From a virus: 28,814 nucleotides of DNA. The stretch covers positions 1 through 28,814 of the IMG/VR virus record IMGVR_UViG_3300028388_006115, one strand, 5' to 3'. A model generated the notes under the pieces. It saw only the letters and a list, made by a program, of their open reading frames with translations. It searched no databases and was not told where the DNA came from. Shown here one piece after another: positions 2,151 to 28,813 of this stretch. Every line of letters begins with the position of its first letter. Position 1 is the first letter of the stretch. A program made the translations under genes and the position numbers.

Positions 2151-2190
2151 ATCATTACACCTTTTTGTGGACTATGCATAAATATTATTT

Positions 2191-2219
2191 ATTATAGCTT
2201 TTATTTTACTTTTTTACAA
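2191..2219 (-). promoter_or_regulatory. Sigma70-like promoter for the homing endonuclease gene
   Basis: On the minus strand TTGTAA (2214-2219) is followed after 17 bases by a perfect TATAAT (2191-2196), about 41 bases before the endonuclease ATG. An overlapping AATAAATA (2186-2193) is one mismatch from the T4 late promoter TATAAATA, so either an early/middle or a late promoter is possible. It lies directly after the capsid gene terminator, where an independent start would be needed. This is sequence similarity only. Confidence 0.5.
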
Positions 2220-2221
2220 TA

Positions 2222-2246
2222 CAAAAAAACCAGCAAAAGCTGGCTT
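2222..2246 (-). terminator. Rho-independent terminator after the major capsid gene
   Basis: Read on the minus strand, AAGCCAGC pairs with GCTGGTTT (one G-T pair) around a TTTT loop, and the run of T continues beyond the stem. It starts 35 bases after the capsid gene stop. It is the only convincing intrinsic terminator I found in any gap of the window, so it probably marks the end of the long late transcription unit. Confidence 0.8.
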
Positions 2247-2281
2247 CTTGTCACCTTAGGGTGTTGTCACTAGAACTTATC

Positions 2282-4096: not shown

Positions 4097-4140
4097 ATGT
4101 TTTATTCCTTTATATAATTCTATTAAACTTAGTTAAATTC

Positions 4141-5694
4141 TTACTTAATTCCAGCTAGAGTTGCCCAACGGTCTAGAGCTACTGATTCGTTCATAGGCTT
4201 TGCTTGCGCGCTGCGAACTGGTCTTGAAGAAGAACTCATTGGTCGTCTTCTAGTAGCACCTTCTGTAAGGTTTCCTGTGCTGGTTCTACGACTGCTTACA
4301 AGTGACTTAGAAAGGCTTTCAAAAAGAATCTTGGCCTCACCTAATGTCTTTGCTTCATCAAGTGACTCAACAATGTGGCGTTGTTGCTTCATTGAAAGGT
4401 CACGGTTTTGCATGAGCTTGTTAGCGTAAAGGAGCTTCGCGTTGAAAAGGTTCATTTCGGTGAGTTGGCTCTTCATTGCGCGAAGTGCCTTCTTATGTTG
4501 TGTAAGCTTGCTTTCTAGCATACGATTCTTGCGTACAACCTTTGCAGCTTTAATCTTCATTTCATGTAGTTTGTTGAGTTCTACTCCGTCAACAAATACT
4601 TCACCTTCAATTGATCCTCCACCAAAGTGGTGAGCCATATCTTTAGCTTCACCTTCACGGATGGCCTTCATTCTACCAATCTCTCTTCTAAGCATATTTT
4701 CATCAATTTCTAAAACACGATTACGACGACGTGACTCTTGCATGTCACCTGCGTGAAGAGTTTCTTCTTGCTCTTCGTCCATTTCGTCCATTTCGTCCAT
4801 TTCGTCAATTTCGTCCATTTCGTCCATTTCAAATAGACCTTCAAGATCAAGCTCAGGCTCTTCAGCTGAATCTTCGGAGTCGTCTGACTCACCTGAAACT
4901 AAGTCGCCTAGCTCTTCTATTGTCATTGCTTTAAGATCATCAATATCTACAGAGTCTGAGCTATCAGAACCTTCAGGCATATCATCGCCTTCACCTTCTT
5001 CATCGTCGTCCATTGTGTCAACGTCTTCTTCTTCGTCGTCCATGCCTAAATCCATGTCATCGTCTTTTGGCATATCGTCGTCACCGTCGTCACCTTCAGC
5101 TTCAAAAAGATCCATCTCTAAAAGATCTTCAAGGCTTTCGTTAAGATATTTTCTATTTGAGCGTCTTCTAGACATATTCTCTAACTCCTTGTTTAATTTA
5201 TAAAATTCTCTTAAAAGTTCTCTATCACTTCTAATTATACTGTTTGTTTTTAATTTTGAAATTTCGTTAATTAAATTTTTATATAAAATAGCAACTCTTG
5301 ATTTTGTAGAAGAATATTGATTAGCATTTTCTGAAAGAATTATTGCTTTTTGCATTGATTTTATGCTTTCTCTAAGCTCTTCTATTTTTTGATAAGCTGC
5401 ATCTTTTTTAGCACTAGAACTAATTAACTTGTTTAAGATTCTTCTAGATTCTTGGTTTAATTCTACGCCTTCTTCTTTTTCTTCTTCGTCAAGGCCTTCG
5501 TAACCGCACTCTTCTTCTTCGTCAAGTGACTCTGTTCCGCACTCTTCTTCGTTAGACTCAAAAAGCTTTTTCTCAACTAAGGACTTGATTTGAGGAGAAA
5601 TAGACTCAACAATCTGTTGTTTAACTTTTTCTTCAGCAGCTAATTTAATTTGCTCAGCTGCTTCTATTGCTTCATTGTATAATGTGTTGCTCAT
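4141..5694 (-). CDS. gp22: Prohead scaffolding/core protein, gp22-like
   Basis: The 517-residue protein should form the internal core on which the prohead assembles and should be degraded by the prohead protease. It lies directly upstream of gp23, as in T4. The C-terminal half (about 375-465) is a long coiled coil with the stretch LTEMNLFNAKLLYANKLM and then SLDEAKTLGEAKILFESL, which matches gp22 of marine T4-like phages as I know it; it ends in ALDRWATLAGIK. Residues 1-47 form another helix. A very acidic middle (186-312) holds Asp/Glu runs and an MDE tandem repeat, and residues 49-75 contain a duplicated EEECG-x-ES/EGLDEEE element. T4 gp22 is about 270 residues, so this one is nearly twice as long, possibly having absorbed an acidic core protein. 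Many LxE sites suit proteolysis. Confidence 0.85.
   Translation of the reverse strand: MSNTLYNEAIEAAEQIKLAAEEKVKQQIVESISPQIKSLVEKKLFESNEEECGTESLDEEEECGYEGLDEEEKEEGVELNQESRRILNKLISSSAKKDAAYQKIEELRESIKSMQKAIILSENANQYSSTKSRVAILYKNLINEISKLKTNSIIRSDRELLREFYKLNKELENMSRRRSNRKYLNESLEDLLEMDLFEAEGDDGDDDMPKDDDMDLGMDDEEEDVDTMDDDEEGEGDDMPEGSDSSDSVDIDDLKAMTIEELGDLVSGESDDSEDSAEEPELDLEGLFEMDEMDEIDEMDEMDEMDEEQEETLHAGDMQESRRRNRVLEIDENMLRREIGRMKAIREGEAKDMAHHFGGGSIEGEVFVDGVELNKLHEMKIKAAKVVRKNRMLESKLTQHKKALRAMKSQLTEMNLFNAKLLYANKLMQNRDLSMKQQRHIVESLDEAKTLGEAKILFESLSKSLVSSRRTSTGNLTEGATRRRPMSSSSRPVRSAQAKPMNESVALDRWATLAGIK
4775..4828 (-). repeat. 9-base tandem repeat in the scaffold gene
   Basis: Six consecutive copies of TCGTCCATT (plus-strand reading) lie in frame, the fourth changed to TCGTCAATT. 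They encode repeated Met-Asp-Glu, with one Ile-Asp-Glu, at scaffold residues 289-306. A perfect codon-level repeat points to slippage expansion and may vary in copy number between strains. Confidence 0.9.
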
Positions 5695-5706
5695 ATTAAA
5701 ACCTAC

Positions 5707-5723
5707 TATTTATATTATTTATA
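5707..5723 (-). promoter_or_regulatory. Two T4-type late promoter motifs before the scaffold gene
   Basis: On the minus strand the octamer TATAAATA, the T4 late promoter consensus, occurs twice in 17 bases (5716-5723 and 5707-5714). They span the 20-base gap between the upstream stop and the scaffold ATG at 5694. The upstream copy would give a leader of about 15 bases containing TAGG; the downstream copy is nearly too close. In such AT-rich DNA the octamer arises by chance several times per window, so the support is its tandem, intergenic position. Confidence 0.5.
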
Positions 5724-6497
5724 TATGTTTGTTTTTTTATTTTTAGACAAAACATTATAACTATCTAAAAATTCTTTACCTGATGTATTATCTAAAATAT
5801 CATATGTTGAAGTTTCACCATCGTCATAATCTAAAAAATCTATTTCAGAAGATGAACTAGGAATTGTCTCGCCACCATCAGTTGTAGGTGTCATTTCAAG
5901 CTCATGATGCGTGGATGAACCTTTAATTTTTACTTTAACTTTCTTCTGGCCGTATCCTTTATTGTTAATACCATGTCGATTAACTGGAAGATGACCATCT
6001 GGCGCTGCATCTGCTGTGTTTGTCGAGCCGTTTAAATTTTTATATAGACTTGATTTACCAGTTGACTTAACAACAATATTACCACTTATTTGATTGCCAA
6101 CTTCTAAAGTCAAAGCTTCTTTAATGTAATTTTTCAAGATAGTCTCAGCGACAATATCGCCTTCTATGTTGTGACTTGAATGAATACCAATAACACCTGC
6201 GATACTATTGCCTAAGCCGCCAAGGCTTGAGATATCAGTTCCTTTTTTAGCTCTACTATCTGTTGCTCTTCTTTGATAAGCAGTATGTGCTTTAGACTCA
6301 ATGTCAGCATCAAGCTCGTCAAAGTCTTCATCATTTTTTAGTTCTTTATCCCATTTACCCATGGGCGAACTTAAAGCATCACCCATATTCCAATTTGAAC
6401 CACCACTAAGAGAACCAATTCCTAAGCCAGTTCTACTATCATAGTTAAATGCACCTCCAAACGAGTTAGGGTTAGTATTAGATAAAGAGTTACTCAC
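5715..6497 (-). CDS. Uncharacterised head-cluster protein
   Basis: This is a 260-residue protein that I do not recognise. It begins at a GTG codon (CGGATTAATAA upstream gives a GGA ribosome site at 8 bases). The N-terminus is Gly/Ser/Asn-rich and looks disordered (1-45), followed by an acidic patch (NDEDFDELDADIE). A short helix ILKNYIKEALTLEVG near residues 120-140 resembles helices at the start of two nearby small proteins. A basic Lys-rich strand (KKVKVKIKG) and an acidic Ser/Asp-rich tail follow. It sits 12 bases after the gene upstream and 20 before the scaffold gene, within the head module, so a prohead-core or internal head protein is the natural guess, from context only. Confidence 0.75.
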   Translation of the reverse strand: MSNSLSNTNPNSFGGAFNYDSRTGLGIGSLSGGSNWNMGDALSSPMGKWDKELKNDEDFDELDADIESKAHTAYQRRATDSRAKKGTDISSLGGLGNSIAGVIGIHSSHNIEGDIVAETILKNYIKEALTLEVGNQISGNIVVKSTGKSSLYKNLNGSTNTADAAPDGHLPVNRHGINNKGYGQKKVKVKIKGSSTHHELEMTPTTDGGETIPSSSSEIDFLDYDDGETSTYDILDNTSGKEFLDSYNVLSKNKKTNIYK

Positions 6498-11951: not shown

Positions 11952-13586
11952 TTATTTCCTTATTAGCCAGCTTAAGTCCCCTAAAGGATTTCTAGGAGTA
12001 GGCTGTCTATTTTTATTTTCACTAAAACTAGTTTGTGGCATAAACACTGGTACAAAAGGATTAACAGCATTCTGGTTGTTATTATAGAAAGGAGACATAA
12101 CAGTTTTATCAATATTTGTATTATTTATTTCCATTCCTTTTAAAATAGCGTCTGCTTGCTGAATTTGTGTAACGTTATAAGTGTTTGAGTTGTTATCTGC
12201 TAACCAGCAGCCAATCGCGATCGACATTATCAGGTCATCATTATAACCTTTCATAGCAGTAATCTTTTTACCGTTCCAAATAAAAGTTTTAAGCTCTTGA
12301 TAAAGTCTCTGAGAATATGTTTTTACTCTTCCGTTTCTTAGACTTTCTTCTAGATTTGCAAGAATCTTGTCTCTGCTTTCTTTACTAGTAGTAAATCCTG
12401 CTTTTGCAATATTTGTTGCATCACCATAGAGATATTGATACTTTTCTTTTTCTTTGGAAAAATAAACGTTTTTATATCCTAAGTCTGCAAGTTTAACAAG
12501 CATTGTATAGCCATAAGCATTATTTTCAGGACAAACCATTGCATTATTAAATCTTTTAGCAACGTCGTATACCAATGAAGCAAATTGATCAGGTGGTATT
12601 TTTCCTTTAAACTCACACTCAACAGTCATATCTCTGTTGTTAATAACATGAAAAGTTGAATAGTCTCCACTATCACCTCTTGCAATATCTGCTGATAGTG
12701 TATAACTTACGTTTTCTAAAGGATATCCCCAATACCAAATATTGTTATTAGGCCCGCTTTTTTCTATTGGCTGTTTAGTTAAGACTCGAATATTCTCTAA
12801 GACATCATTTGTAAGAAAAGTGTCACCAGAAGAAGCAAAGTCGCACAAAAGTTCTTGAGAAACCTGCTTTTGAGACATGTTTTTGGTTTCTTTGTCAAAC
12901 CATTCGTCATCTCTTTCTGGGTGAACATCCCACATAAGTTTAATTGGATTAAATTTATTTTCTTTTCTTTCAGCTTTTGTATATATTTCATGATATTGAC
13001 CACCAACGCCATTAGGTGTCGAAAGCAAAATAGCACGTCCACCAGTAGATAATGTGGGATATAAACCCATCCATAACTCGTCAAAGTTTCTTACAAAAGC
13101 GGCTTCGTCTACTATTAAAAGTGATAAAGCTTCTGAACGGCCTGCATCTTCTGAAGTGGGGACTGCTTTAATTTGAGATCCGTTTGAAAACTCTACTTGC
13201 TGCTTATTATTTGCTGTAATGACTGGAACTAGCAACCAAGGTGGCATTGACTTAATATATGTCTTAACTTTTCTTATAAAGTTTTGAGCTACAGCTAATT
13301 TTGTAGCTATAATTAAAATATTTTTTTCTTTATAAAAAGCTGCTTGCCAAACTGCATAAGCAGCAACCAAAGTTGACAAACCTAACTGTCTAGACTTTAA
13401 AATAATGTTAAATCTATGGTCGTTAAAGTCTTGTACACAGTCATCTTGAAAAGGAAAAGTATTAAATCTAATTAAGCCTTTTAAAGGATGCTGTATTTTT
13501 AAGTACTTGTTCATAAAGTACACTGGGTCTTTACCACACTTAATAATTTCAGCTATCTGGCCGTTTTTAGACTTAACACTTGCCAT
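11952..13586 (-). CDS. gp17: Terminase large subunit, T4 gp17 family
   Basis: The 544-residue ATPase-nuclease drives DNA into the prohead and cuts the concatemer. The ATPase half has a Walker A variant SRQLGLST (65-72), Walker B LLIVDEAAF (D160, E161) and coupling motif LLSTPNG (187-193). The nuclease half shows acidic residues in SADIARGDSGDYS (D300), CPENNAYG (E354) and GYNDDLIMS (D450/D451), the expected RNase-H-like arrangement. The length is close to T4 gp17 (610) but shorter at the N-terminus. The gene starts at ATG with GAGGTAAAATAAG upstream and sits one base from both neighbours. Unlike T4, portal follows directly, with no tail sheath or tube genes between. An octamer TATAAATA at 13601-13608 lies just upstream but overlaps the 3' coding end of the preceding gene. 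Confidence 0.95.
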   Translation of the reverse strand: MASVKSKNGQIAEIIKCGKDPVYFMNKYLKIQHPLKGLIRFNTFPFQDDCVQDFNDHRFNIILKSRQLGLSTLVAAYAVWQAAFYKEKNILIIATKLAVAQNFIRKVKTYIKSMPPWLLVPVITANNKQQVEFSNGSQIKAVPTSEDAGRSEALSLLIVDEAAFVRNFDELWMGLYPTLSTGGRAILLSTPNGVGGQYHEIYTKAERKENKFNPIKLMWDVHPERDDEWFDKETKNMSQKQVSQELLCDFASSGDTFLTNDVLENIRVLTKQPIEKSGPNNNIWYWGYPLENVSYTLSADIARGDSGDYSTFHVINNRDMTVECEFKGKIPPDQFASLVYDVAKRFNNAMVCPENNAYGYTMLVKLADLGYKNVYFSKEKEKYQYLYGDATNIAKAGFTTSKESRDKILANLEESLRNGRVKTYSQRLYQELKTFIWNGKKITAMKGYNDDLIMSIAIGCWLADNNSNTYNVTQIQQADAILKGMEINNTNIDKTVMSPFYNNNQNAVNPFVPVFMPQTSFSENKNRQPTPRNPLGDLSWLIRK

Positions 13587-14005: not shown

Positions 14006-14257
14006 TTTATTTGGTCGCCAACCTTTATCCCATTTTTCTTTGTTAGGATAATAGTATAAATCATAACAAGAACAACATATGTTATGGGCTTTCATTTTTT
14101 CTACATCTTCAATTGTAGATATTAAAACTTTGCAATAACTACAGTCTAGAGATATAGGTTTATCACCGATTGGTCTGATAAATTTTATATTTTTATAGTA
14201 AACTTCTTCTTCAAATTCATCAATTTTTTCCCATTTTTGATTAAGCACAGTAGACAT
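14003..14257 (-). CDS. Small zinc-ribbon protein
   Basis: This 84-residue protein has a probable zinc ribbon: C39 and C42 (CSYC), then C61/C62 and C64 (CCSC), about 20 residues apart. The tail is aromatic and basic (YDLYYYPNKEKWDKGWRP). The start chosen is ATG 14257, nine bases after GGAG; an ATG six bases earlier is too close to that site. It overlaps the 3' end of the gp47-gp46 fusion gene by 17 bases, so the two are probably translated together. Such small zinc proteins may bind nucleic acid or act as adaptor proteins in phage DNA metabolism. The specific function is unknown. Confidence 0.75.
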   Translation of the reverse strand: MSTVLNQKWEKIDEFEEEVYYKNIKFIRPIGDKPISLDCSYCKVLISTIEDVEKMKAHNICCSCYDLYYYPNKEKWDKGWRPNK

Positions 14258-17200
14258 AAGCATCAGCTCCTTTTTTAGTTATTTCAATATTTTTGTCAAC
14301 TATATCTTTGATAGAATCAACATGTGAAATTATTAAAATTGTTTTAAAATACTTTTTTAAGCTTGTTAAAAGTCTAGAGCAAGCTTCGACGTTAGAATCA
14401 TCTAGTGCTCCGAATCCTTCATCAATAATAAAGATATTAGACTTAGGAAGTGAAGAAATATTAATAAGCGCAACTCTAATTGCTATTGAAGCAATCATTT
14501 TTTCCATACCACTTGCACATTCTATTATTCTTTTTGAGTCACCATAGTCAATATAAACATTTAGACTTGTGCCATCATCTTCTAAGTTAATTGTAAAAGT
14601 AGCAACGCCTGAGAGTATCTTATTAATCTCTTTGTTAATTAGAGGTAAGCTGTTATTAATCAGCATTGCTGGAATGCCTTTTTTAGAAACTGCATATGAA
14701 AAAAGGTCGTATGTTTTCCATTTTTTAACAATATCTAAATAATCTTCTTTTTCTTTATTGTAAGTGTTTATTCTATTTTCAATTGCAAACTGGTCTTTGC
14801 TAATTCTAACAAGCAGAGATTCTTTATCGTAAACATCAGAAGATATTAGATTTAGATCCTGTTTTAGCTTTTTTACTTTTTCATTTAAACTATCATTATT
14901 ACTTAGTTCTAATTCACTGCGTATCTTATTTAAATTTTCTAGTTTTTGTGTAAATATAGAAATTTTATCTTTCAAGTTTTCTATTTTTTCTTTATTTCTA
15001 TCTAAGTCAAGATTTGTTTTATACTCTTTGTTTAATACGCTATTAAATTTTTTTATTTTTTCTTCAATGTTTTCTTTTTCTATGTTTCTAACAGCTGATG
15101 TTATTTCTAATATGTTTGTTTCAATTGACTTTATCTCATTAGATAGCTTTTCTATCTGTGCTTTTGACTCATAAGCACCTTTAATAAACTTACAGTCAGA
15201 AAAAGTTTCATCACATGGCACTTCTTCTAGAATATTTAAGCTGTTTTTATTCCTTTTGATTTCTTCATTGATAAAGACTTGACTATTTTTATTAGAAGCA
15301 AGATTTTGTTTAAGCACACTAAGCTTCTTTTTCTGATCTTCTAACTCTTCAATAGAGAAACTTTGCTTAAAATCTTTTATTTTTTCAATAATACTTTTGT
15401 TAGAAACTATTTCTTCTTCTAGTAAATTGATATTGTTTTTGTTTTCATTAATCTTATCTTTTATATAAGAAATTTCTTTTGTAACACTTTCAAGAGAGTA
15501 ACCAGACGGGTGTGATTTTTGTCTTTTTTCTAAATTGTTTACTTCGACCTTTATGTTTACTTCTTTTTCTCTTAGCGCAGACAATTCATCTTTTACTTTG
15601 TTTTGTAACTTTTTGTTTTCTTGTATTTCAGCTTTGCATTCTTCTATTAGACTATTCCAATTTTTCTCGTTTAAACTTTTGTGTTTGTTTTTTAACACAA
15701 TATAGTCTTCCCTTGATCTTTTATAAAGATCCTCATACAGATCAAGATTTAAAAACTTAGAAAGCACAGTTTTTCTTGCACTTGATTTTTCTTTTATAAA
15801 AGTATTCATTTCTCCTTGAGACGCAAACGAAGTATATAGAAAATCTTCAGGAGTGCCGATCATATCTCTTATTATTTTTTCTGTTTCTCTTCTTTGTTCT
15901 TCTGTTTGATTGTTATTATCTGAAAGGCTTTTTAAGCTTAGGCTTGTTGTCGAACTTATCTTTCCTTTTTTGTCTGATTTTTTAAGTGTTTCTCTTTCAA
16001 TTAAAAACTTTTTCTGGCCTATAGAAATACTAGCAGAAGCTTTGCAACTTCCTTTTCTTATGTTGACTATATTTTGATTTTTAATTGATCCTCTATCAGA
16101 ACTGTTAAACAAACAATACATTAAACTTCCGGGTATTGAAGATTTTCCTGCTCTATTATTTCCAAACAGTCCAACAACGCCACCAAGATTATCAAAATTA
16201 ACAAGGTTGTTTTTACCGTAAGAAAAAGTATTGTCAAATTTTAAATCGTGAATTGTCCAATAGCTGCTATTTAAAGATGATAATTCATCGGGTATCTGGT
16301 CTAAGTAATCATTAAAAATATTATTAACGTCATTTGTAATATTTTCTTCTACGGAATCATTAAAAAAATCTTTTAAAAGACTAAGTCTTTTTGTTTTATT
16401 TCTTACATCAAAAGATTTAGCTTTTTCTTTGCTGACTACTTGTATGTCTAAATCGTTTTTTCCAGTATTTTGATATACTACTTCTTTTGCTTTTTTGTCC
16501 TCTTTAAGATAGTGATGAATTAGTTTGATTTCAATTTGTGAAATGTTTTGATTTGATCTAATTCTAAATCTAGCGCCTTTTTTAATTTTCTGTAGATATG
16601 GTAACGTGTTCTCAAAAGATCCTTGCCAGTCTACTGTAATGAAAGGGCTTGGGTTTTCTATAGCAATAAACTTACTTTTAAAGTCATTCGTATTGTTTAT
16701 TTCCCACAACAAATAACCTTTTTTGACGTCTTCGCCATAATTTTGTTGTATTGTAGAACCTGGGTATGCTACTCTTTTTTCGTTATCAAGATATTGTAAT
16801 TTATGAATATCACCTAAAAAGCTAAAATCGAAGCCATCAAAAAAACTAAGGTTAACCTCACCTTCTAATTCCCAGTCAATATCAGTCTTAGAGCCCCAGA
16901 CTGCCCCATGAAAACATGCAATATTTATTTGGCCGTCAATAGGTTTAACTTTATCCCAATTTTCTTCATCAAAACAAGAAAAAACACACCAGTTTATGCC
17001 AGCTTTTCCAGTTGGATATATACCACTTTTTTTATAAAGAAATATGTTTTTATCATCTAAAGCATTAACTATAGGAGTAATAGCATCCTGCCTGTCTTTG
17101 TTTAAAATAAGGCCGTCATGATTGCCTAGTATTACATGTGTAGGAGCAATAGAAGAAAGTTCTTTAAACCACCAGTGCAAGTTTTCAATAAGTTCAGGTG

Positions 17201-17369
17201 AAATACCTTGCGTCTTAGAGTGTACTATGTCGCCACCAATAAAAATAGCGTCTAAATCTTCTTGCTCTCTTAAGTTTGCGAATAATTTTTCAAATACAGT
17301 TCTATACTCTTCGTGTCTTTTGAGACCTCGCCAATGTATATCTGATATGTGTGCACATTTAAAAGTCAT
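14241..17369 (-). CDS. gp47-gp46: Fused Mre11/SbcD nuclease and Rad50/SbcC ATPase (T4 gp47-gp46 in one chain)
   Basis: The 1042-residue protein joins two recombination subunits that are separate in T4 and in cells. Residues 1-245 are the calcineurin-like nuclease with all metal motifs: SDIH (D10, H12), GGD47, GNHD (82-85), H154 (CFHGAVWG) and GDIH (D187, H189). Residues 245-365 contain the capping region and a likely Rad50-binding linker. Residues 366-1042 are the SMC-type ATPase: Walker A GNNRAGKSS (403-411), Q-loop Q518, long coiled coils around a hook CDETFSDC (C719, C726), signature ASGMEK (952-957), Walker B IIDEGFGALDD (D983, E984) and H-loop H1016. The frame is unbroken. The enzyme should resect double-strand ends for recombination-dependent replication. 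The ATG follows AGGAAAAAAT. The hook is CX6C rather than the usual CXXC. Confidence 0.93.
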   Translation of the reverse strand: MTFKCAHISDIHWRGLKRHEEYRTVFEKLFANLREQEDLDAIFIGGDIVHSKTQGISPELIENLHWWFKELSSIAPTHVILGNHDGLILNKDRQDAITPIVNALDDKNIFLYKKSGIYPTGKAGINWCVFSCFDEENWDKVKPIDGQINIACFHGAVWGSKTDIDWELEGEVNLSFFDGFDFSFLGDIHKLQYLDNEKRVAYPGSTIQQNYGEDVKKGYLLWEINNTNDFKSKFIAIENPSPFITVDWQGSFENTLPYLQKIKKGARFRIRSNQNISQIEIKLIHHYLKEDKKAKEVVYQNTGKNDLDIQVVSKEKAKSFDVRNKTKRLSLLKDFFNDSVEENITNDVNNIFNDYLDQIPDELSSLNSSYWTIHDLKFDNTFSYGKNNLVNFDNLGGVVGLFGNNRAGKSSIPGSLMYCLFNSSDRGSIKNQNIVNIRKGSCKASASISIGQKKFLIERETLKKSDKKGKISSTTSLSLKSLSDNNNQTEEQRRETEKIIRDMIGTPEDFLYTSFASQGEMNTFIKEKSSARKTVLSKFLNLDLYEDLYKRSREDYIVLKNKHKSLNEKNWNSLIEECKAEIQENKKLQNKVKDELSALREKEVNIKVEVNNLEKRQKSHPSGYSLESVTKEISYIKDKINENKNNINLLEEEIVSNKSIIEKIKDFKQSFSIEELEDQKKKLSVLKQNLASNKNSQVFINEEIKRNKNSLNILEEVPCDETFSDCKFIKGAYESKAQIEKLSNEIKSIETNILEITSAVRNIEKENIEEKIKKFNSVLNKEYKTNLDLDRNKEKIENLKDKISIFTQKLENLNKIRSELELSNNDSLNEKVKKLKQDLNLISSDVYDKESLLVRISKDQFAIENRINTYNKEKEDYLDIVKKWKTYDLFSYAVSKKGIPAMLINNSLPLINKEINKILSGVATFTINLEDDGTSLNVYIDYGDSKRIIECASGMEKMIASIAIRVALINISSLPKSNIFIIDEGFGALDDSNVEACSRLLTSLKKYFKTILIISHVDSIKDIVDKNIEITKKGADAYVYCA

Positions 17370-17377
17370 ATTTTTTC

Positions 17378-18367
17378 CTAAAGCATTGCTATTTTTCTTA
17401 GCAATAAGTCATCTTCTTCGTATTTTTTAGCTTTGTCTAAGCAGTCTTCAAACTGGTTTTTTGTCATGTCACCTACATCATTAGCAATTCTAGTATCTAA
17501 GATGTTAACATCAACGTCGTATTCTTTAAGCATTTTTGCAATTTTAAGTGATTTAAAATAAACGTCTTTGTCTAAAGCTAAATTAACTTCTGTTTTATTA
17601 GATACTATTTTTTTAAATAACTTCATGTCTTGGGTTAGTGATGAACCTAGCAAACAAGTAGCATTATCATTTGTTTTTATTAAGTCAAGAGGACCTTCAA
17701 CTAATGTTAGTGGAAGTGACCAGTCAATATGTAACTCATTAAAAATAATATCTTTTTTTGAAACTGAAGCATTTTTATATTTTATTGGGCTTGAAGTATC
17801 TACGTCGATTCTTCTTGAAGTATAAAAATTAATGTCGCCTTTTTCATCAAAAGAAGGAATAATGAGACTCCTACTAAATTCATTATCAAGAGAACATCCT
17901 AGTCTAAGAAGCCACATTTTATGTTTTGAAACTCCTCTTTTAATAGCATACCTAAAAACGTCTCTAATATCAGGATGTACAGAATTAAAATTGTTTGCTA
18001 GCAACTTAAAACCTATAGGTAGTTCAACACTAATTTTTTCTTCTTCGATAAAAACGTCTTGTGAATCAAACAAGTTAATTTGAAAGTCTGAGTTATAGTT
18101 TTTGCTTTTAAAGATTTTTTTTGCTTCTGCGACTTTGTTTTTATTGTATCTAGACACAACATAAGATACGTCAGCACCTTTTTTGTCACAAAGCCAACAA
18201 TGCCAAAAATTTTTTTCTAAATGAATTGCTAATTTTAGCTTGTTTTTATTATCATGTTTACAAAAAGGACACCAAATAGACAGGTTAACACCGTCTTTTG
18301 AAATCAAGTAATTATGAGTAATTTTTTCAATAAAGTTTATCTTATTGTTTATTGATGTTTCTTTCAT
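17378..18367 (-). CDS. DnaG-type DNA primase
   Basis: This 329-residue protein should make RNA primers at the replication fork. An N-terminal zinc finger is visible (C33, C36, then C57, C60, with H49 and H56 nearby: WCPFCKHD and HCWLCDKKG). The TOPRIM core follows with the glutamate in TLVEGPLDLI (E224) and the acidic pair in LALDKDVYF (D266, D268). It is close in length to T4 gp61 (342) and lacks a helicase domain. The ATG at 18367 overlaps the resolvase gene end by 26 bases; an in-frame ATG at 18427 would add 20 residues of overlap with no better ribosome site. The helicase partner is not in the window. Enzyme class is confident; the precise T4 counterpart is inferred. Confidence 0.85.
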   Translation of the reverse strand: MKETSINNKINFIEKITHNYLISKDGVNLSIWCPFCKHDNKNKLKLAIHLEKNFWHCWLCDKKGADVSYVVSRYNKNKVAEAKKIFKSKNYNSDFQINLFDSQDVFIEEEKISVELPIGFKLLANNFNSVHPDIRDVFRYAIKRGVSKHKMWLLRLGCSLDNEFSRSLIIPSFDEKGDINFYTSRRIDVDTSSPIKYKNASVSKKDIIFNELHIDWSLPLTLVEGPLDLIKTNDNATCLLGSSLTQDMKLFKKIVSNKTEVNLALDKDVYFKSLKIAKMLKEYDVDVNILDTRIANDVGDMTKNQFEDCLDKAKKYEEDDLLLRKIAML

Positions 18368-18932
18368 TATAAATTGCTGCCTTACAAATAACATAAGCGT
18401 CAGACATATCATAACAAGATTCATCAAATTTTACACGACCTTTATTTGGACCACTTTTTAATATTTTTTCTGGCCAATCAAATAAAAAATTGTTTTTATC
18501 AAAATCACGCTTTACCCACTCAAAAACCTGATCTTTGGTTGTTTTTTCTAGTTTCTTATTTACTTTTATACCAAGTGCTTTTCTTGCACTGTTAACATTT
18601 ATATACTCAGGTATAACTGAATATATCTCTGTTGCAATATAAGACACAATACCATTAAACATATTTAGTTTTGATAAAGTCTTTGCTGATGAAAAACCAG
18701 ATCTAAAAGACTGAAAGCTTTCTTCTATACTAATTTTGACATTTTCTTCAAAAATATATTTTTCTTTAAAATTTGTAAATTGCTGTTTTACTACGTTAGA
18801 CTTATTAAAAATACAATTTATCTTTTTAAGATTTATACTTTCTAAACTAACTAAATTACCAACATTATCAAGAAGAGCAACACCAATTATAGAAGTAGAT
18901 ATATCTAATCCTATGTATTTAACTTTGTTCAT
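18342..18932 (-). CDS. RuvC-like Holliday junction resolvase
   Basis: This 196-residue RNase-H-fold nuclease probably cuts Holliday and branched junctions before packaging. Catalytic acids appear in the RuvC order: D10 in YIGLDISTS, E70/E71 in ISIEESF, and the D175/D178 pair in CYDMSDAYVI, with the DxxD spacing of RuvC. Its start codon shares the A of the TAA stop of the LamG protein gene (TAATG), with GGATTTTTA upstream. It overlaps the primase gene by 26 bases. T4 uses endonuclease VII (gp49), which has an unrelated fold, for this step, so this phage appears to rely on a RuvC-type enzyme instead, unless a gp49 lies elsewhere. Confidence 0.85.
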   Translation of the reverse strand: MNKVKYIGLDISTSIIGVALLDNVGNLVSLESINLKKINCIFNKSNVVKQQFTNFKEKYIFEENVKISIEESFQSFRSGFSSAKTLSKLNMFNGIVSYIATEIYSVIPEYINVNSARKALGIKVNKKLEKTTKDQVFEWVKRDFDKNNFLFDWPEKILKSGPNKGRVKFDESCYDMSDAYVICKAAIYNERNINKQ

Positions 18933-21900
18933 TAAAAATCCATTTTGAGTCTAAATAAAACATTGTCAGTATCTTTTTTAGGAAAAGGCTTAACAATTTT
19001 TGCTTTAGCTACTATATTAAGATTTTCATCATGTAAGTTAATATCTGATATGTAAACAAAATCCTCGTCAGAATTAAATGCTGATTCATCAAGCCTAAGA
19101 TCTTTGATTTTTGAACTATTGTAAGACTTGTTTGTTCTACCTGAATAAGCGGGAAGATTTAGCTCTAAAATGTTTAGTTTTCTAGAAGACTTAAATTTTA
19201 TTTTATAACCATTTTCTGTAAAGTTTTCTAGTGACGGGTGAAGTATAGTAATAACACCTTCTTGATACAAACAATGTCCAACACAATTCCAGTCAGCTTT
19301 CTTTGTGAGGCAATCTGCTCTATACATTGTACCTTTACCATTATCTTTTAACCTTATTTTTTTACTTCCTAGTGTTCCTCCAAGATCTGAGTCAAAAATC
19401 TCAACAGATTCTCTTTCTACTTTTCTTCCAAATAGCTGTGTAGAAATACATAAAATATTACTAAAAGCCTCTGACGAAGTGTTATTAATATTTAATAATG
19501 GAAACTCAAACCTGTAATAATTAATTCTATTTGTACCATCAGCGTCTAACTGCTTGAAGTCAATTCTCGCTAAATTATCTGCAATACTTCTGTCAAAACT
19601 ATCGTTTATCTTTCTACTAACTGGATTAGAAAGATTTTTCAAGTAACTTCCTGATCCTATGACAATACTTTTTCTTCCTGAGTTGTTATTGTTTCTATTT
19701 TGTGACTTTATGTAAAGACCTACCCCACTATCACTACTAAGATTAAAGTTTTCTCTAAAATAGTTGTATAAAGAAGCATTTTTAAAATTATCATAGCTTT
19801 CTTTGAATCTTATGTTTTCTGAAACGTAAAAGTTTTGTCTTCTTTCTAAAGGAGATATTTCTTTTATTTCTTGTGTATAATCAAACAATTCTCTGTTAGC
19901 TACTTCAAGTAAAAGATTGTTTGATTCAAAAACTAAGTCTTCTTCAATCAAGTCATTCAGACCTATAAAGTCTAAATCAAAATTACCGTGTGACTTATTA
20001 TGTATACTCGGTTCTATGTCATTTTCGTAATAACCTTTGACATATTGTCTATGTTGAATTTGCAATCCGTTATCACATGGTAAAATTAAATTATTTTTAT
20101 AGGCAACGTAATTGTTGTAATAATAATCAATTGTATTGTTTGTAGGTGCTATTTCCTTAAGATTAGAAAGTCTTTTTGAATATGAAGAATTTAAAGATTT
20201 TCCTTTTTTAGTTTGCTCGCTTATAAAGCTAGTACTTAGATCAAGTGTATTAGTAGTAGTATCTTCGTTATAAGCGAGAATATTAAAACAATTAGCAGTT
20301 TTTTGCTCTGAAACAATATCATCGTTTAATATAATGTTTGGGCATGACTTATTCTTAAACTCGTAAAGAAAGCTCTCTATACAAACATCATGTCCCATTG
20401 ACTTATTTGAAAAATAATAATTTACAGGACTTTCTATTATGACGTTATGAAGATTTATATTGTTTAAGCTATCAGTTTCTGAATTATTATTTGCTATATT
20501 ATTTAAATTTATTAAGCTCTTTTTTTTAATTTTTGAGTTGTAATAGTATACAGGCAAAGAAAAAACTAATTTTTCATCCAAAAAGCTTCGTATAGAATTT
20601 TTACATATTTCGTAATCAATATTAGACTGATTTATAGTTTGATTGTAAATTCTTATATCATGAATTTCTGCTGACAGTGCAAAACTAGTATTGTCAATAA
20701 AATAATCAGGACTACTAGCTAAAGTTAATTGATCGTTTAAGCTAAAACTTTCATCTGTAAAGTCACTCTCATAATAATTGACAGCATTTGCTGATTTACC
20801 AAAATCTATGTTTTTATTAACGTAAGCACCTTCAAGATCATTATCTGTTGATTTTCTTATAGAAAACAATTTTTTATATAAGTTATCCGGGTTACTTTGT
20901 GAAGAATATCTATTGCCTAATAAAACAAAATTTCTATTGTTTGTTGTCATTAATTCGTCAAAAGATCCGACAGTGCTTAATTGTATCTCTTCAGAAGAAC
21001 TTAATTGTGCATCAATATAAATACCTGTGTCAATAATTTTAAAATCATTATCTGCACTATCTGAAGTCTGTATTGTTATTGATACGTTTTGCCAATTATT
21101 ATAGTTAATAATATTATCATTGCTTAAATAAAACGAAATATCAGACAAACCATCGTTTCGATCCTGTTTTACTGCAGTCGAGCTAGATATCTGACTATTT
21201 AAAAAATCTTTAATAAGAACTTCATTACCTAAACTATCACCGTATACAATTAGTAATCGAAACTTATCTGTAAGGTTGTTTTTGTCTGTGCTTGAACCTT
21301 TTACTAAATAGATACCAATAACACCTTCGACAAATAAAATACAACCTGGATTCAAACTGTAGCTTTCTACATTTTTATTGTTTTGATTTATGTAGAAAGA
21401 TATTGTTAATTTATCACTTTCGTTATTAAAAAAGTTATATATTGGAGTATTGTTAATGATTGGATTTGCAAATGCAATACAGTTTTTATGAGTCTTGCCA
21501 GTGTTTTTCGGACTTGATATGTTAAAAAAGTTAATTGCGTTATAATTAAAAAATCCCCAGTTTGGATCTACAACTCTATGTTGGATATTCTCTCTGTAAT
21601 ATCTATATAAGTTCTTTATAGCTTGTTTTTTATAAAAACCTTTGTCATCTACAAGGTATTCTTGTTTTACTTTTTCGATTCCAAACTTAAAAGAATCAGA
21701 AACGTCTTGTGAAAAACCTGCACTACTTAAAACCCGATCAGCTGTTTCTTGAGTATACGCATTATGTTGATTTAAAGACTTTATATTATTAATTTGTTGT
21801 AATGCAGTTAAATTATTTTCGTTATTATAATCTTTATTTATTAAAAAAGTCTTGCGAAAATTAACAGTATTACTATTGTTATTCATGTTTATATTATCGT

Positions 21901-22072
21901 GATGCTTAATTTTAGTAATACTAGAATCTAATTGACCAACTAAACCAGCACCACTGACTCCGTAAGAATCATAGTCATTACATTCTAGTGATGCTGAAAT
22001 ATAAGTACAATCAGGCTGTATTTCGATTGTATTTCTAACAACCATTTTTTTGTCAATTAAATTTAAAGTCAT
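18932..22072 (-). CDS. Large virion structural protein with LamG-like domain and shared C-terminal module
   Basis: This 1046-residue protein is probably a tail, fibre or baseplate-associated component. Residues about 196-490 look like a laminin-G/concanavalin-type jelly roll, shown best by SFYI strands, YNNWQNVSITI, and the closing motif ALSAEIHDIRIYNQTINQSN followed by IDYEI (465-489). Such domains bind sugars or pack in fibres. The remainder is Asn-, Ser- and Tyr-rich with no known motif. The last 40 residues (1007-1046) align without gaps to the end of the neighbouring 414-residue protein. It has no signal peptide. The ATG follows AAAGAGTTATT, 12 bases after the upstream stop; the stop overlaps the resolvase start. 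It could bind host surface glycans, but this is inference. Confidence 0.75.
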   Translation of the reverse strand: MTLNLIDKKMVVRNTIEIQPDCTYISASLECNDYDSYGVSGAGLVGQLDSSITKIKHHDNINMNNNSNTVNFRKTFLINKDYNNENNLTALQQINNIKSLNQHNAYTQETADRVLSSAGFSQDVSDSFKFGIEKVKQEYLVDDKGFYKKQAIKNLYRYYRENIQHRVVDPNWGFFNYNAINFFNISSPKNTGKTHKNCIAFANPIINNTPIYNFFNNESDKLTISFYINQNNKNVESYSLNPGCILFVEGVIGIYLVKGSSTDKNNLTDKFRLLIVYGDSLGNEVLIKDFLNSQISSSTAVKQDRNDGLSDISFYLSNDNIINYNNWQNVSITIQTSDSADNDFKIIDTGIYIDAQLSSSEEIQLSTVGSFDELMTTNNRNFVLLGNRYSSQSNPDNLYKKLFSIRKSTDNDLEGAYVNKNIDFGKSANAVNYYESDFTDESFSLNDQLTLASSPDYFIDNTSFALSAEIHDIRIYNQTINQSNIDYEICKNSIRSFLDEKLVFSLPVYYYNSKIKKKSLINLNNIANNNSETDSLNNINLHNVIIESPVNYYFSNKSMGHDVCIESFLYEFKNKSCPNIILNDDIVSEQKTANCFNILAYNEDTTTNTLDLSTSFISEQTKKGKSLNSSYSKRLSNLKEIAPTNNTIDYYYNNYVAYKNNLILPCDNGLQIQHRQYVKGYYENDIEPSIHNKSHGNFDLDFIGLNDLIEEDLVFESNNLLLEVANRELFDYTQEIKEISPLERRQNFYVSENIRFKESYDNFKNASLYNYFRENFNLSSDSGVGLYIKSQNRNNNNSGRKSIVIGSGSYLKNLSNPVSRKINDSFDRSIADNLARIDFKQLDADGTNRINYYRFEFPLLNINNTSSEAFSNILCISTQLFGRKVERESVEIFDSDLGGTLGSKKIRLKDNGKGTMYRADCLTKKADWNCVGHCLYQEGVITILHPSLENFTENGYKIKFKSSRKLNILELNLPAYSGRTNKSYNSSKIKDLRLDESAFNSDEDFVYISDINLHDENLNIVAKAKIVKPFPKKDTDNVLFRLKMDF

Positions 22073-22084
22073 AATAACTCTTTT

Positions 22085-23329
22085 TTAATAGTCTAGTCTA
22101 ACGCTTATTGAAAGATCAACTTCTGGATTTTTCTCTATAGGCCTCGATGTTTTTGCAACAGCTAATAAGTCGCCAGAAGCATCATACAATCCTATTGTTG
22201 TAATGTAAGAAAAAGGATCATCGCCTCTATCTTGTATACATCTAATGTTTCCATCACTGTCTGTATAAGTCGGGTTTGTAGAAAAATTTGCGTCATTTGG
22301 ACCAACTCTACAAAAATATAATGTAGAATTTATACTTGTTTGATTAATAAAACCTATTGCAGATTTATTTGACCTACCGAATCTAGTATCACATATATGA
22401 TCAACAACATTATCGATTGAGCCGCTAGTCCAAAAGTTAGGAATCATAGCAGCGCTAAAGTCTGTCTTCGTATTTGTATTGCTTTCAACAGAGCTAATTG
22501 TTCCTGTAACAACATCAGTGCCTGTAAATATTTTGTGTGCATTTAATACAACAATTCCTTTGTCATAAAAAATTAGTCCAACTTTTTCTGTGCCGTTTAC
22601 AATAGAGCCAATTTGACCTGAAACTGTTGAAACATTAAGATTAGAAGTTGCGTTTGCATCTGAATAAAGTTTAAAAGAAGGAGAATTATCAAACTCCTGA
22701 TCTTCAGGAATTAATGCTTCTATATTTGTTCCATCTACTGGTGCAGGAGGCAAGTGACTATGAATTTTTATTGAAAATTGTTCTTTTTCGAGTCCATCTC
22801 TAACAAAAAGTCTTTTAAAGTTAATAAAAACAGCATCATGAATCTTGTCATCATCATCGTCTGATTCAAAAGGCACATAAAACCAAGACTCAGAGTTACC
22901 TAGAAGAATCTGTGCGTATTGCTTATAAATAGCAATTTTCTCTCTCATCATTAAAACATCATTACCAAAAATTAATTTTCCTGATGCATCTGTATTAGGC
23001 ACCATATTGCCTTCACCATCATCTACGTCATTTACAGCTTTAACTGTGCTACTTGATTGATGGCTACCTATTGTAATATCAAGCATCTCGTTTGAAGTCT
23101 GAAAAGAGTGATCTTGATCAAAAACTGTTTGATAAAGAGAAGAAGTCACTGATCCTGATACATCTAAACCACCTGTGACAAAAACCTCGTATTTCTTTCT
23201 AGTGTTCAAATTTACAGCTTCGTTATCTGGGTCAATAGATGCAACATCAGCCTGTAAGACGTCTACAAGTTGTCTAATGTTAGATTTTTTGCTTACTCTG
23301 TCAGAGTCGTTTATGTCGTAAAATGTCAT
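22085..23329 (-). CDS. Conserved structural protein of marine T4-like phages
   Basis: This 414-residue protein has a recognisable layout: an N-terminal half with SSLYQTVFDQDHSFQTSNE, then LDITIG (about 62-88), and MMREKIAIYKQYAQILLG (127-144), leading to INFKRLFVRDGLEKEQFSI. I know this pattern from conserved structural proteins in cyanophages and other marine T4-like phages, where the role is unassigned. The end (375-414, starting YITTIGLYD) is a module shared with the LamG protein. AAGGAAATTTAAAC precedes the ATG, and the gap to the gene upstream is 13 bases. A tail or baseplate location is likely from its neighbours; I cannot name a T4 counterpart. Confidence 0.8.
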   Translation of the reverse strand: MTFYDINDSDRVSKKSNIRQLVDVLQADVASIDPDNEAVNLNTRKKYEVFVTGGLDVSGSVTSSLYQTVFDQDHSFQTSNEMLDITIGSHQSSSTVKAVNDVDDGEGNMVPNTDASGKLIFGNDVLMMREKIAIYKQYAQILLGNSESWFYVPFESDDDDDKIHDAVFINFKRLFVRDGLEKEQFSIKIHSHLPPAPVDGTNIEALIPEDQEFDNSPSFKLYSDANATSNLNVSTVSGQIGSIVNGTEKVGLIFYDKGIVVLNAHKIFTGTDVVTGTISSVESNTNTKTDFSAAMIPNFWTSGSIDNVVDHICDTRFGRSNKSAIGFINQTSINSTLYFCRVGPNDANFSTNPTYTDSDGNIRCIQDRGDDPFSYITTIGLYDASGDLLAVAKTSRPIEKNPEVDLSISVRLDY

Positions 23330-23342
23330 GTTTAAATTTCCT

Positions 23343-24104
23343 TTATGCTGATGCTATTTCATTGCTAGTTATTGTAACAGGAACAATCAAAGAAGACTTT
23401 GTAAAGTCACCAATAATTTCTACTTGAGTTTTAATTCTATTTCTAGAGTCACCACTAGCAGAAGTTGCGTAATACTTGTAAGAGTCTGATGTTACTTTAC
23501 CAATTGCAGTCACAGAAATTTTTCCAAACTTTTGATTATTAAACTCAATTTCAGAATTATCTGTAATTGCAGGTACTCTATAATAAGCAATGTCATTTTC
23601 AATATCAAAAGGCGTCACATCGTTTAACTTGAGCAGCTTATTAAAAACCTTTACGGTAAATGTTGTGTCTATAAGTCCAGATTCTGTAATTTCAAAGTCT
23701 TGATCTTGGTTAACATGTGTTTTAAAGCTAATTGAAGCATTTTTTCCTGAGCTAGACGCTGAATTTGAAGTAATTATTATGTCTGTTGACTGATAACTTC
23801 TTAGTTTTAAAGAAGGAAAAGCGTAAATACTGTTTGTATTATTTGCAATAAAAGTTCTTATAGGATATTTAAGAGCTAAATTTTCATCAGTTATTGCTTC
23901 AAACACAGGGGTGTTTTTTTCTATTTTTTCTTTACCAATAATTAGACCGTATTTTTCTAATATGGCATAATCAACTTCGTCATCACCAAGTCTAAACTTG
24001 CTTATACTAAAAGAATTATCGTTTCTTGACAACAATTCTCGACCTTTTTCAGTTAAAACTGCATCTATTATAACATTATTTGTAGAGTGATTTAAAAATC
24101 CCAT
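23343..24104 (-). CDS. Conserved structural protein, VLTEKGRELL family
   Basis: This 253-residue protein begins with MGFLNHSTNNVIIDAVLTEK and then GRELLSRNDNSF and KFRLGDDEVDY (to about residue 48), the signature of a structural protein found in many T4-like marine phages. The middle has KEKIEKNTPVFEA, and the rest is beta-rich with Thr, Ser and Ile. No enzyme motif is present. The ATG has GGAG upstream at 24111-24114 and a T4-type late promoter motif 28 bases upstream. It precedes the 414-residue structural protein by 13 bases, and the same pair order is familiar to me from marine phages, which supports a shared role in the tail or neck. Confidence 0.8.
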   Translation of the reverse strand: MGFLNHSTNNVIIDAVLTEKGRELLSRNDNSFSISKFRLGDDEVDYAILEKYGLIIGKEKIEKNTPVFEAITDENLALKYPIRTFIANNTNSIYAFPSLKLRSYQSTDIIITSNSASSSGKNASISFKTHVNQDQDFEITESGLIDTTFTVKVFNKLLKLNDVTPFDIENDIAYYRVPAITDNSEIEFNNQKFGKISVTAIGKVTSDSYKYYATSASGDSRNRIKTQVEIIGDFTKSSLIVPVTITSNEIASA

Positions 24105-24131
24105 CTTTTTCTCCAGTTTATTTTTCTATTT

Positions 24132-24139
24132 TATTTATA
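24132..24139 (-). promoter_or_regulatory. T4-type late promoter motif
   Basis: The minus strand reads TATAAATA in the 42-base gap before the structural gene that starts at 24104. Initiation about seven bases downstream would leave a leader of about 20 bases with a strong GGAG ribosome site. The octamer overlaps a mirror TATAAATA on the plus strand (24136-24143). Position supports it; in DNA this AT-rich the octamer also occurs by chance. Confidence 0.5.
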
Positions 24140-24146
24140 AATATGA

Positions 24147-25784
24147 TTAAATAAAATTCGTTATCTTAAATTGTTTCTCATATTTTTCAAGATCGTTTAG
24201 TCTAAATATTGTAAGCTTGTATTCTTCATCATTATTAAAGATGTTATGATAACTATCTACACCTGTTTTTACTTTACAATAATCTGGGGTAACATACAGT
24301 TTGATACTTTTAATATTTTTTACTATTGGTAAATTATCAATTATTTTATCATCGTAATCAAAAAATATACTTTTGTTTAAAAGCTTTTCGTTTGGCGTAT
24401 TTCTTTTTGCACCAGAATATGAAACTAAATCGTATATTAGTTTTTCTTTAAAAGGGTCAAAAACAATTGCAACTTGTTCAGAATAGTCTGAAAAATAACC
24501 GTGTGCGTCTATTGTTCTTATTGCGTATATAGTTATTTTTCCTCTTTGATAATCATTATCTATAAAACTATATTTAACCTCTCCTGGTGTTTTAACGACG
24601 AGCTCATCTAAAACACTCTCTTCAGGATTATATAGATCACTTTCGTTGTGCCCTTCTAATTGCGCAATTACAGTAAAACTTTCTTCAAGAGAGTGCCTTT
24701 TAAGAATTTGATAACCTTTTGCATCGTATTGATAGTCTGTAGGCTCATTCCATCTTATTTCAATGCTATTATCCCCTGTTATCATAAACTTTAAATTAAC
24801 AGGCGGTGGAGGTGCCTCTTCTTCAAAACAAGATATGTCACTAGTTATTATTGGATGATCACAAATTAAATATTTATTAACTACACACTTATCAATTGAA
24901 TCTATTTCTGAATATAAATATACATTGTGCACAACATACTTATAAGTTTGACCATATCTAACAGACTCGTCTTCGATAGAGTTGTTTATAATCATACTTT
25001 GAGAATCTTTATTTTTTGTTATAAACTTACCGCATAAGAATTTGTATTTTTCACCATCTAAAATAAATTTTTCTATTAATAAACCACATCGAATAGCATT
25101 GTAATTAGAAAAATCAGTTTCATACGATTCAATTTCATTAACAGTTTTTTCTAGCACTTTTAAATTAACAAAGTTACAACCATTTCTGTTAAGCTCCAAG
25201 TTTTCTGTTGGATCTTCAATTTTTGGACCTTGTTTTCCTTTGAATATTAATTCATTGTATTTAGAGTCATTTAAAAGCATCCCGTTTTCAGGAAAGTCAC
25301 TCATTATGTTTAATCTATTAAGATTGTTATTGAAAATTTCTGGATTTAAATAAGATATTTTTTGATTGTATTTTATGTTGTTTGAAAAGATCGATGATTT
25401 GTCTTCTTTAAAAAAGTTTGAAATTTTTATCTTTTCTTTGTCGTCAAGCGTGTTTGTGATAAACTTTCTTTTTGGAATAATGCTGTCTATCTTATTAAAC
25501 ATTAAAATATCTTGAGCAGTCAAAGTCTTTAGCGACATGTTGTAGATTGACTCTACAAAATTATCTCTGTTGTAGTCTGATTTGTCACTTTCGTTTAAAT
25601 TTTTAAAAACAAGCCTAATAAATCTTTTTTTCTGATATGAAAAGTCAGAGACTGTTATAATATCATCATCAATACTTGTTTCTTTGTCTTCGTAGTAATT
25701 GTATACAAATTTTGTATCGACTTCAAGCTCTTGAGTTTTTTTACTAGTATTTAAAGAAAATATATTGTCAATTATTTTTAACAT
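24147..25784 (-). CDS. Virion structural protein with fibronectin type III domain
   Basis: This 545-residue protein has one clear fibronectin-III domain at about 325-443: a Pro-rich entry (APPPPVNLKF), IEIRWNEPTD, the Y-x-I-L-K-R strand (GYQILKRH), and YAIRTIDAHGYFSDYSE at the end. Residues 276-320 (YKYVVHNVYLY) look like the last strands of a second, degenerate copy. Such domains are common in phage tail, fibre and decoration proteins, where they are thought to contact host surface sugars. The N-terminal 270 residues and the last 100 have no recognisable motif. The gene starts two bases after the previous stop and is followed by a 42-base gap containing a late promoter motif. Confidence 0.75.
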   Translation of the reverse strand: MLKIIDNIFSLNTSKKTQELEVDTKFVYNYYEDKETSIDDDIITVSDFSYQKKRFIRLVFKNLNESDKSDYNRDNFVESIYNMSLKTLTAQDILMFNKIDSIIPKRKFITNTLDDKEKIKISNFFKEDKSSIFSNNIKYNQKISYLNPEIFNNNLNRLNIMSDFPENGMLLNDSKYNELIFKGKQGPKIEDPTENLELNRNGCNFVNLKVLEKTVNEIESYETDFSNYNAIRCGLLIEKFILDGEKYKFLCGKFITKNKDSQSMIINNSIEDESVRYGQTYKYVVHNVYLYSEIDSIDKCVVNKYLICDHPIITSDISCFEEEAPPPPVNLKFMITGDNSIEIRWNEPTDYQYDAKGYQILKRHSLEESFTVIAQLEGHNESDLYNPEESVLDELVVKTPGEVKYSFIDNDYQRGKITIYAIRTIDAHGYFSDYSEQVAIVFDPFKEKLIYDLVSYSGAKRNTPNEKLLNKSIFFDYDDKIIDNLPIVKNIKSIKLYVTPDYCKVKTGVDSYHNIFNNDEEYKLTIFRLNDLEKYEKQFKITNFI

Positions 25785-25786
25785 TT

Positions 25787-28700: not shown

Positions 28701-28813
28701 ATTGTATCTAAAGAATTTTTAAAATCGTCGGAATATAACAGTGTTAAATAAGGTATTTGAGAATTTTGCTTTTGAATGTTTTTTGCTTTATTTTTTATTT
28801 GATTAAGATAGTT
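25787..28813 (-). CDS. Giant structural protein, 5' end outside window
   Basis: The frame is open to the right edge, giving at least 1008 residues; a TTG at 28576 would yield 929 but is not a convincing start because the coding sequence continues in frame with the same character for another 79 codons. The protein is Asn-, Tyr-, Phe- and Ser-rich and mixes helical stretches with polar loops. There is no signal peptide, membrane segment or nuclease, ATPase or lysin motif that I can see, and I do not recognise a family. Its immediate partner (2-base gap) is the fibronectin-III protein, and the run of genes beyond is structural, so a tail or baseplate component is the likely role from context. 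Confidence 0.7.
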   Translation of the reverse strand, partial: NYLNQIKNKAKNIQKQNSQIPYLTLLYSDDFKNSLDTIEKSEFTLRDPNGNTYKKFDFSASQEGIKNTLDFIVKNNSEDLTNFNLNSNIIQEFLSLFYTNSELKSSSTFFNYSYKNTINILSSYMDNSPTLNRINLCYDKLLSDAVLNEDSLDLSLGLVISALIKHKNILVSKNFDEVNEKSSGIYQRYLEKVYSYENIQRQKSYTLRTVKFPNINISCLPENKNRSTSTNQASFDYNSDINYIAKIADHNFNFGVMPGETYNICFPFLFRNYMTNVSEDNSQCCAYDLQNNEGLAIADRRRFKEVDDPVGSCESLYEYVFSNFYNYDVYLDSSTATLGENNFLSETSFNVEENNVSIYNILRREKKKDNTSSLNKDTDYRNILEGLTETQESIDSETPKTFENNIKKTLNYKRWGIEFKDYGFYTKNQPRLKSFINKTIIEFLKYIDADFDTNVADINSLEDAVKYAQTFSDEVPIFTKLLKFSCNLFSTVFDLVIEGSVQKNIVKYIENYEDSIIYNASHCWEKEFFDLLNLKNLIKNYKKYSFEKNVSSESDLDNIMYTKLHADIMCIDKTLNNSDILEIMSFDTLISYHNEFEKFKTQGSSFDRTKELITDLEEEAGITNLNDVIFDDVNKNLFAKKINDYYYYQNTEFQKINQKINSDFSIDLREHFKSLLTSSENGQNFYSTHLLEEENKGTLSAQGSALLNVKNLNYDIIRIGIDQNMAKILSNSKLLKFKCHITNHKYPNLFIPPIYYFYTPVFTEITPSHLSLLENTKKYEEGIFVDDFIGMYDFNTSDIKERYGVASFAEAVQYVALILLDNVNNERIFRNESASLSNDGLSKIRNAYKIVTDAILSNSVKYCNYRTQKNIDENKIGEFDENVSILGELGLTLFETMSITDFENTFAESYSKATSSFGIDSRNVNNFDVVNNQAHSVEFFKQITKYIDEDKVSETFSQKRFYDIFSIVIGRKDIEEHIYKYYESNLAGLPDKPGFFDSFSYIIEAEIV

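Follow-up and report, generated by a model that had tools for sequence, protein, structure and literature searches.

An Mre11/SbcD-Rad50/SbcC fusion gene in tailed phages with T4-type heads

Proteins that carry Mre11 and Rad50 in one chain were described in 2011, when Yoshida, Claverie and Ogata reported Mimivirus R555 and twelve other fusions, including cases in Bacillus phage 0305phi8-36, plasmids, bacteria and eukaryotes (PMC3175470). Several origins of the fusion were argued for, and the domain order and linker were argued to fit the complex of T. maritima, in which the C-terminus of Mre11 lies ~28 A from the N-terminus of Rad50, i.e. a span of 9-12 residues (PMC3175470). In known structures the helix-loop-helix (HLH) of Mre11 binds the root of the Rad50 coil, the T. 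maritima case being summarised in the same paper (PMC3175470). The active site of R555 has GDxxH, and Asp at the position of P. furiosus His206 (PMC3175470). R555-like fragments were found to be abundant in aquatic viral metagenomes, some of them beside phage primases, and a phage source was suggested, with the fusion confirmed for only a few of the fragments (PMC3175470). We found no later papers on Mre11-Rad50 fusions in the open-access literature, a search from which subscription journals were mostly absent. The first-pass annotation of the DNA studied here had considered such fusions as not well described in phages; the 2011 report, which includes a phage case, contradicts this (PMC3175470).

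We analysed a window of 28,814 nucleotides, positions 1 to 28,814 of the IMG/VR virus record IMGVR_UViG_3300028388_006115, and found that it encodes a new, well-supported member of this kind of fusion. The gene (14241..17369, minus strand) encodes 1042 aa in one frame that starts with ATG, ends with TAA and has no internal stop, with a Shine-Dalgarno-like AGGA a little 5' of the start codon. The first-pass annotation had named no strand; the plus strand is rich in stops over the same interval. Pfam recognises Metallophos at residues 4-189 (E 2e-11) and AAA_23 at residues 376-586 (E 4e-7), while SbcC_Walker_B at residues 949-1002 is a weak match under the family cut-off. PHROG 77, the 'SbcC-like subunit', matches residues 279-1034 (7e-52). 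The only PDB sequence matches of the protein are Mre11/SbcD and Rad50/SbcC chains, and the Foldseek matches are Mre11-Rad50 structures, E. coli SbcCD included. It is highly probable that the product is an Mre11-Rad50 (SbcD-SbcC) nuclease in a single chain, with which the phage processes the ends of DNA double-strand breaks.

The protein resembles R555 in having Mre11 at the N-terminus and Rad50 at the C-terminus, in keeping the length of the cap and HLH, and in showing the same two active-site changes. It differs in its shorter coil (1042 aa in total, versus 1351 aa for R555) and its tailed-phage context, and perhaps in its C-x6-C hook. E. coli SbcCD has the same domain order, SbcD then SbcC, and is among the fold matches, but it is encoded by two overlapping genes, has the motifs GHIH and SGGE and a CPLC hook, and has a longer SbcC. 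T4 gp47 and gp46 have the same two activities and are colinear with the fusion, and the window has head genes of the T4 type; however, the T4 genes are separate, with 46.1 and 46.2 between them, their motifs read GDIFD and GHFH with a CPTC hook, and gp46 is much shorter (560 aa). The gene had been read at first as a fusion of gp47 and gp46. It is indeed a fusion of Mre11/SbcD with Rad50/SbcC, but of a distant branch and not of gp47 and gp46 themselves, which T4 has as separate genes.

We collected relatives by a single-sequence scan of IMG/VR, which gave 42 loci, and by a profile scan, which gave at least 590 stretches, with 80 loci kept. The whole protein is held in one frame by 111 of the 132 loci with a match, corresponding to 98 distinct proteins; most of the remaining loci run into the end of a contig, two are split by an inserted endonuclease gene, and a few are distant partial matches. 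Our alignment has 106 rows, 94 of them distinct, and we prefer the distinct counts since some loci were taken twice with different flanks. The relatives come from many metagenomes and an isolate, and the fused frame is also present in a 735-kb megaphage. The matches L126-L132 are in bacterial metagenome-assembled genomes, e.g. of Halobacteriovorax and Methylococcaceae; these may be misbinned phage contigs and we do not count them as evidence of cellular fusions.

The proposal that one unbroken frame carries both domains is borne out by ~94 distinct full-length, single-frame relatives with the motif sets intact, none of them with a stop or frameshift in residues 310-370. The fusion at 14241-17369 is real and is conserved across roughly a hundred of the phage contigs sampled. 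We estimated dN/dS as a sum over 22 close pairs, 20 of them independent (two pairs were counted twice), and as dS is near saturation the following values are rough: 0.053 for the nuclease, 0.088 for the cap, 0.117 for the HLH and linker, 0.042-0.049 for the ATPase, 0.153 for the coil and 0.107 for the junction (residues 345-372). The junction and every other segment are under purifying selection. An assembly or sequencing artefact, in which two genes were joined by a lost stop or frameshift, could be suspected from a run of seven Ts near codons 334-337, a possible error site. We give this practically no chance: the distinct full-length frames from many metagenomes and the isolate, the junction dN/dS of 0.11 and the near-constant spacing between the cap and W371 (71-73 residues for 74 of the 94 sequences, counted from where the cap ends) rule it out.

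We predicted the structure of the fusion with AlphaFold2 (AF2) using 79 alignment rows (pLDDT 84.6, pTM 0.51); with a pTM of only 0.51 the contacts between domains, including that of the HLH on the coil, are not readable from the model. On the minus strand, the protein starts with a phosphoesterase (nuclease) domain of the Mre11 type (residues 1-226, 16692..17369), supported by Pfam Metallophos, AF2 and the invariant active-site residues, which is followed by the Mre11 capping domain (residues 230-301, 16467..16682), supported by AF2, a profile match to E. coli SbcD and the T4 gp47 alignment. After a floppy stretch at residues 304-324 comes an HLH (residues 325-356, 16302..16397) with AF2 helices at 325-339 and 342-356, which is poorly conserved in sequence and is presumably the Rad50-binding element. 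The true fusion linker (residues 357-369, 16263..16301) lies between the second helix of the HLH and the first Rad50 strand in the AF2 model. Lobe I of the Rad50/SbcC ATPase (residues 370-542, 15744..16262) opens with this strand at 370-379 and contains the Walker A motif and the Q-loop; it is matched by Pfam AAA_23 and by SbcC 3-501, aligned from profile position 372. In the AF2 model, coiled-coil arm 1 (residues 543-716, 15222..15743) and arm 2 (residues 727-894, 14688..15191) lead to and from the apex, and lobe II of the ATPase (residues 895-1042, 14244..14687), with the signature, Walker B, D-loop and H1016, ends the chain.

The profile comparisons place the junction between two entire proteins. 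Positions 173-363 of the family profile match residues 210-399 of E. coli SbcD (407 residues in total), i.e. its C-terminal part, and the match to SbcC begins with its residue 3 at profile position 372. Because SbcD 399 and SbcC 3 abut on the profile, the fusion amounts to SbcD and SbcC, both entire, plus about ten added residues. The T4 proteins abut similarly at fusion residues 348 and 371, gp47 1-326 aligning weakly to residues 3-348 (probability 66%) and gp46 4-539 to residues 371-1019. Residues 245-365 had been regarded as a linker that replaces the usual non-covalent contact, a reading that the AF2 model and the profile matches overturn, since this region is the rest of the cap, the floppy stretch and the HLH. 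In the single-chain AF2 model the HLH at 325-356 does precede the linker, and the added linker is only ~13 residues (357-369).

The whole chain might still yield two proteins, through internal initiation or through proteolysis in the floppy stretch, and two observations would suit this: residues 304-316 have pLDDT below 50 and are predicted to be disordered, and two lineages carry two frames. We regard it as very unlikely. An internal start is ruled out, as the window gene has no in-frame ATG, GTG or TTG codon at residues 321-400, and no Shine-Dalgarno-like sites were found before the internal ATGs of the relatives. Split genes are found at L037 and L046 (the latter being LR756508), where different, unrelated endonuclease genes interrupt the gene just after motif V (GDIH), the split genes spanning 1259-5423 and 1534-5759, respectively. 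The insert in L046 is TnsA-like, and the N-terminal pieces of both genes finish in a similar 'ELExYLxxGW' tail. A group I intron was considered for both split genes and rejected, with no Rfam match at the gathering threshold.

The first-pass annotation had listed five complete phosphoesterase motifs and a complete Rad50 set in this phage with a T4-type head, and our analysis agrees. The phosphoesterase motifs, with their metal ligands, are D10-x-H12 (I), G46-D47 (II), G82-N83-H84-D85 (III), H154 (IV) and G186-D187-I-H189 (V), the last having Asp for its first His. The Rad50 set, split by the long coiled coil, consists of Walker A GLFGNNRAGKSS (400-411), the Q-loop at Q518, the signature SGMEK (953-957), Walker B IFIIDE (979-984), the D-loop L989-D990 and the H-loop H1016. 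The nuclease residues D10, H12, D47, H50, N83, H84, H154, D187 and H189 and the ATPase residues K409, S410, S953-E956, D983, E984, D990 and H1016 are invariant in all 106 alignment rows (94 distinct), and G403 and Q518 are kept in 105 of the 106. The signature reads SGME, not SGGE.

Two departures from the usual nuclease motifs are common to all members, i.e. GDxxD is GDxxH in motif II and GHxH is GDxH in motif V. Motif V of the window (G186-D187-I188-H189, 16803..16814, minus strand) has Asp where Mre11 has His, the same change as reported for Mimivirus R555. Asp here replaces a metal-binding His in every member, and judging from the motif, nuclease activity could be altered; the nuclease half may even have lost or shifted its chemistry, leaving the protein mainly to tether ends. 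We consider the latter improbable, as all other ligands are invariant and the domain is among the most constrained parts of the protein. GDLH also occurs in the unfused D12-like protein of the T5-like Vibrio phage PG07, so GDxH alone is no mark of fusion, and Asp can ligate Mn.

Our preferred reading is that the single chain works as the canonical complex does. Two copies would dimerise through their phosphoesterase domains and ATP-sandwiched Rad50 heads, giving a dimer head that is the same as that of the 2:2 complex, with the two coiled-coil arms meeting at the hook. Each HLH would hold on to the base of a Rad50 coil as before, and the linker of 13 residues would do no more than tie the C-terminus of SbcD to the N-terminus of SbcC, two ends that lie close together in the known complex. 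ATP binding would close the head round DNA and hydrolysis would let the nuclease cut. The resulting 3' ends would feed recombination-dependent replication, together with the neighbouring primase and RuvC-like resolvase. We infer the catalytic activity, the dimerisation, the contact between HLH and coil in cis and the role in replication. It had been suggested at first that nuclease and ATPase would be locked 1:1, which is no change at all, the canonical 2:2 complex being 1:1 already. The related idea that the fusion alters control, the cis tether making each nuclease work with its own ATPase and so changing how ATP gates it, gains something from the short linker of nearly fixed length and from the retention of the fused form across divergent phages. 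It nevertheless seems unlikely: the protein has kept its HLH and cap, and its linker matches the distance in the native complex, and for this reason unchanged gating is the parsimonious reading. Ease of co-transfer and co-expression, which has been offered as a reason for fusion, also explains why the genes are joined (PMC3175470).

The hook at the apex of the coil is unusual. The hook loop (residues 717-726, 15192..15221, minus strand) holds C719-x6-C726 instead of the CxxC of a zinc hook. The C-x6-C is found in 88 of 98 distinct sequences and sits at the mid-point of two arms of near-constant length (~177 and ~172 residues). The apex loop consensus is PC-x6-C-x-F-I, with CxxCC or C-x-C-x6/7-C in a few relatives, and CxxC-type loops occur in Mel-JY01, the megaphages, L111 and L120. 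As all ATPase features are present, we regard the C-x6-C hook as a variant within the Rad50/SbcC family and not as grounds for exclusion. Tentatively, and with the odds against it, one may speculate that the conserved apex loop of this clade joins two chains by other means than the CxxC zinc hook, i.e. another metal site or a disulphide, and that the fusion and the new hook together give a modified machine for tethering ends, gated in its own way.

The genes around the fusion assign this R555-type family to tailed phages that have T4-type heads and the order primase-fusion-terminase. Directly upstream is a DnaG-type primase with a zinc ribbon (17378..18427, minus strand; Pfam PF01807, 1.6e-6), followed by a RuvC-like Holliday junction resolvase (18342..18932, minus strand; phrog_159, 4.7e-7). 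Downstream are two small frames, then a T4-type, gp17-like large terminase (11952..13586, minus strand; phrog_2, 1.4e-49), portal, protease and major head protein. Among relatives with enough flanking sequence, 93 of 95 carry the primase on the upstream side and 105 of 107 the terminase on the downstream side. The nearest terminases to that of the window are those of Flavobacterium phage immuto and Mel-JY01 (39%), and the nearest head proteins those of megaphage LR756508, Mel-JY01 and immuto. A large group of R555-like genes is hereby traced to tailed phages with T4-type heads. With its short coil, its 1042 residues and a subunit ratio fixed by the single chain, the protein would also be handy for structural work.

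We searched for separate copies of the two genes in seven related contigs of 188-320 kb, which may be incomplete, and in Mel-JY01, and found no second AAA_23 over the cut-off; only one of these large records has Metallophos outside the fusion, in three other small genes. A quick tree without R555 set 24 fused or split sequences apart from six unfused pairs (SH-aLRT 99); the unfused branches are very long and the fused set was gathered by similarity to the window protein, so this separation does not establish a single origin.

Among isolates, fusions are encoded by Microcystis phage Mel-JY01 (WWT39521.1, 1066 aa), Tenacibaculum phage pT24 (BPT24_019, 1310 aa) and Sphingomonas phage PAU (gp288, 1301 aa), where they are annotated merely as AAA, DNA repair or gp288. 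All three have a Metallophos N-terminus and a Rad50/SMC-like C-terminus in one frame, and Mel-JY01 has a primase gene upstream as in the window. They differ from the window protein in having ~30% identity or less to it, in the CxxC-type hooks of Mel-JY01 and pT24, and in the greater length of the pT24 and PAU proteins. Among viral proteins, the best matches by fold come from giant viruses; these are 1343-1389 aa long and bear the name DNA repair protein. Proteins of Tenacibaculum phages rank high as well. In pT24 (14713-18645 of the stretch collected) motif I reads DFQ and not DxH, without the motif I His, and its nuclease site may be changed.

Elsewhere in the window, five large frames beside the replication genes (18932-28813; 1046, 414, 253, 545 and >1008 aa) have no PHROG match. 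The major head gene is adjoined by a homing endonuclease gene (774-2150; phrog_3339 2e-80, NUMOD3), the C-terminal stretch of which matches the Mom family (PF25680).
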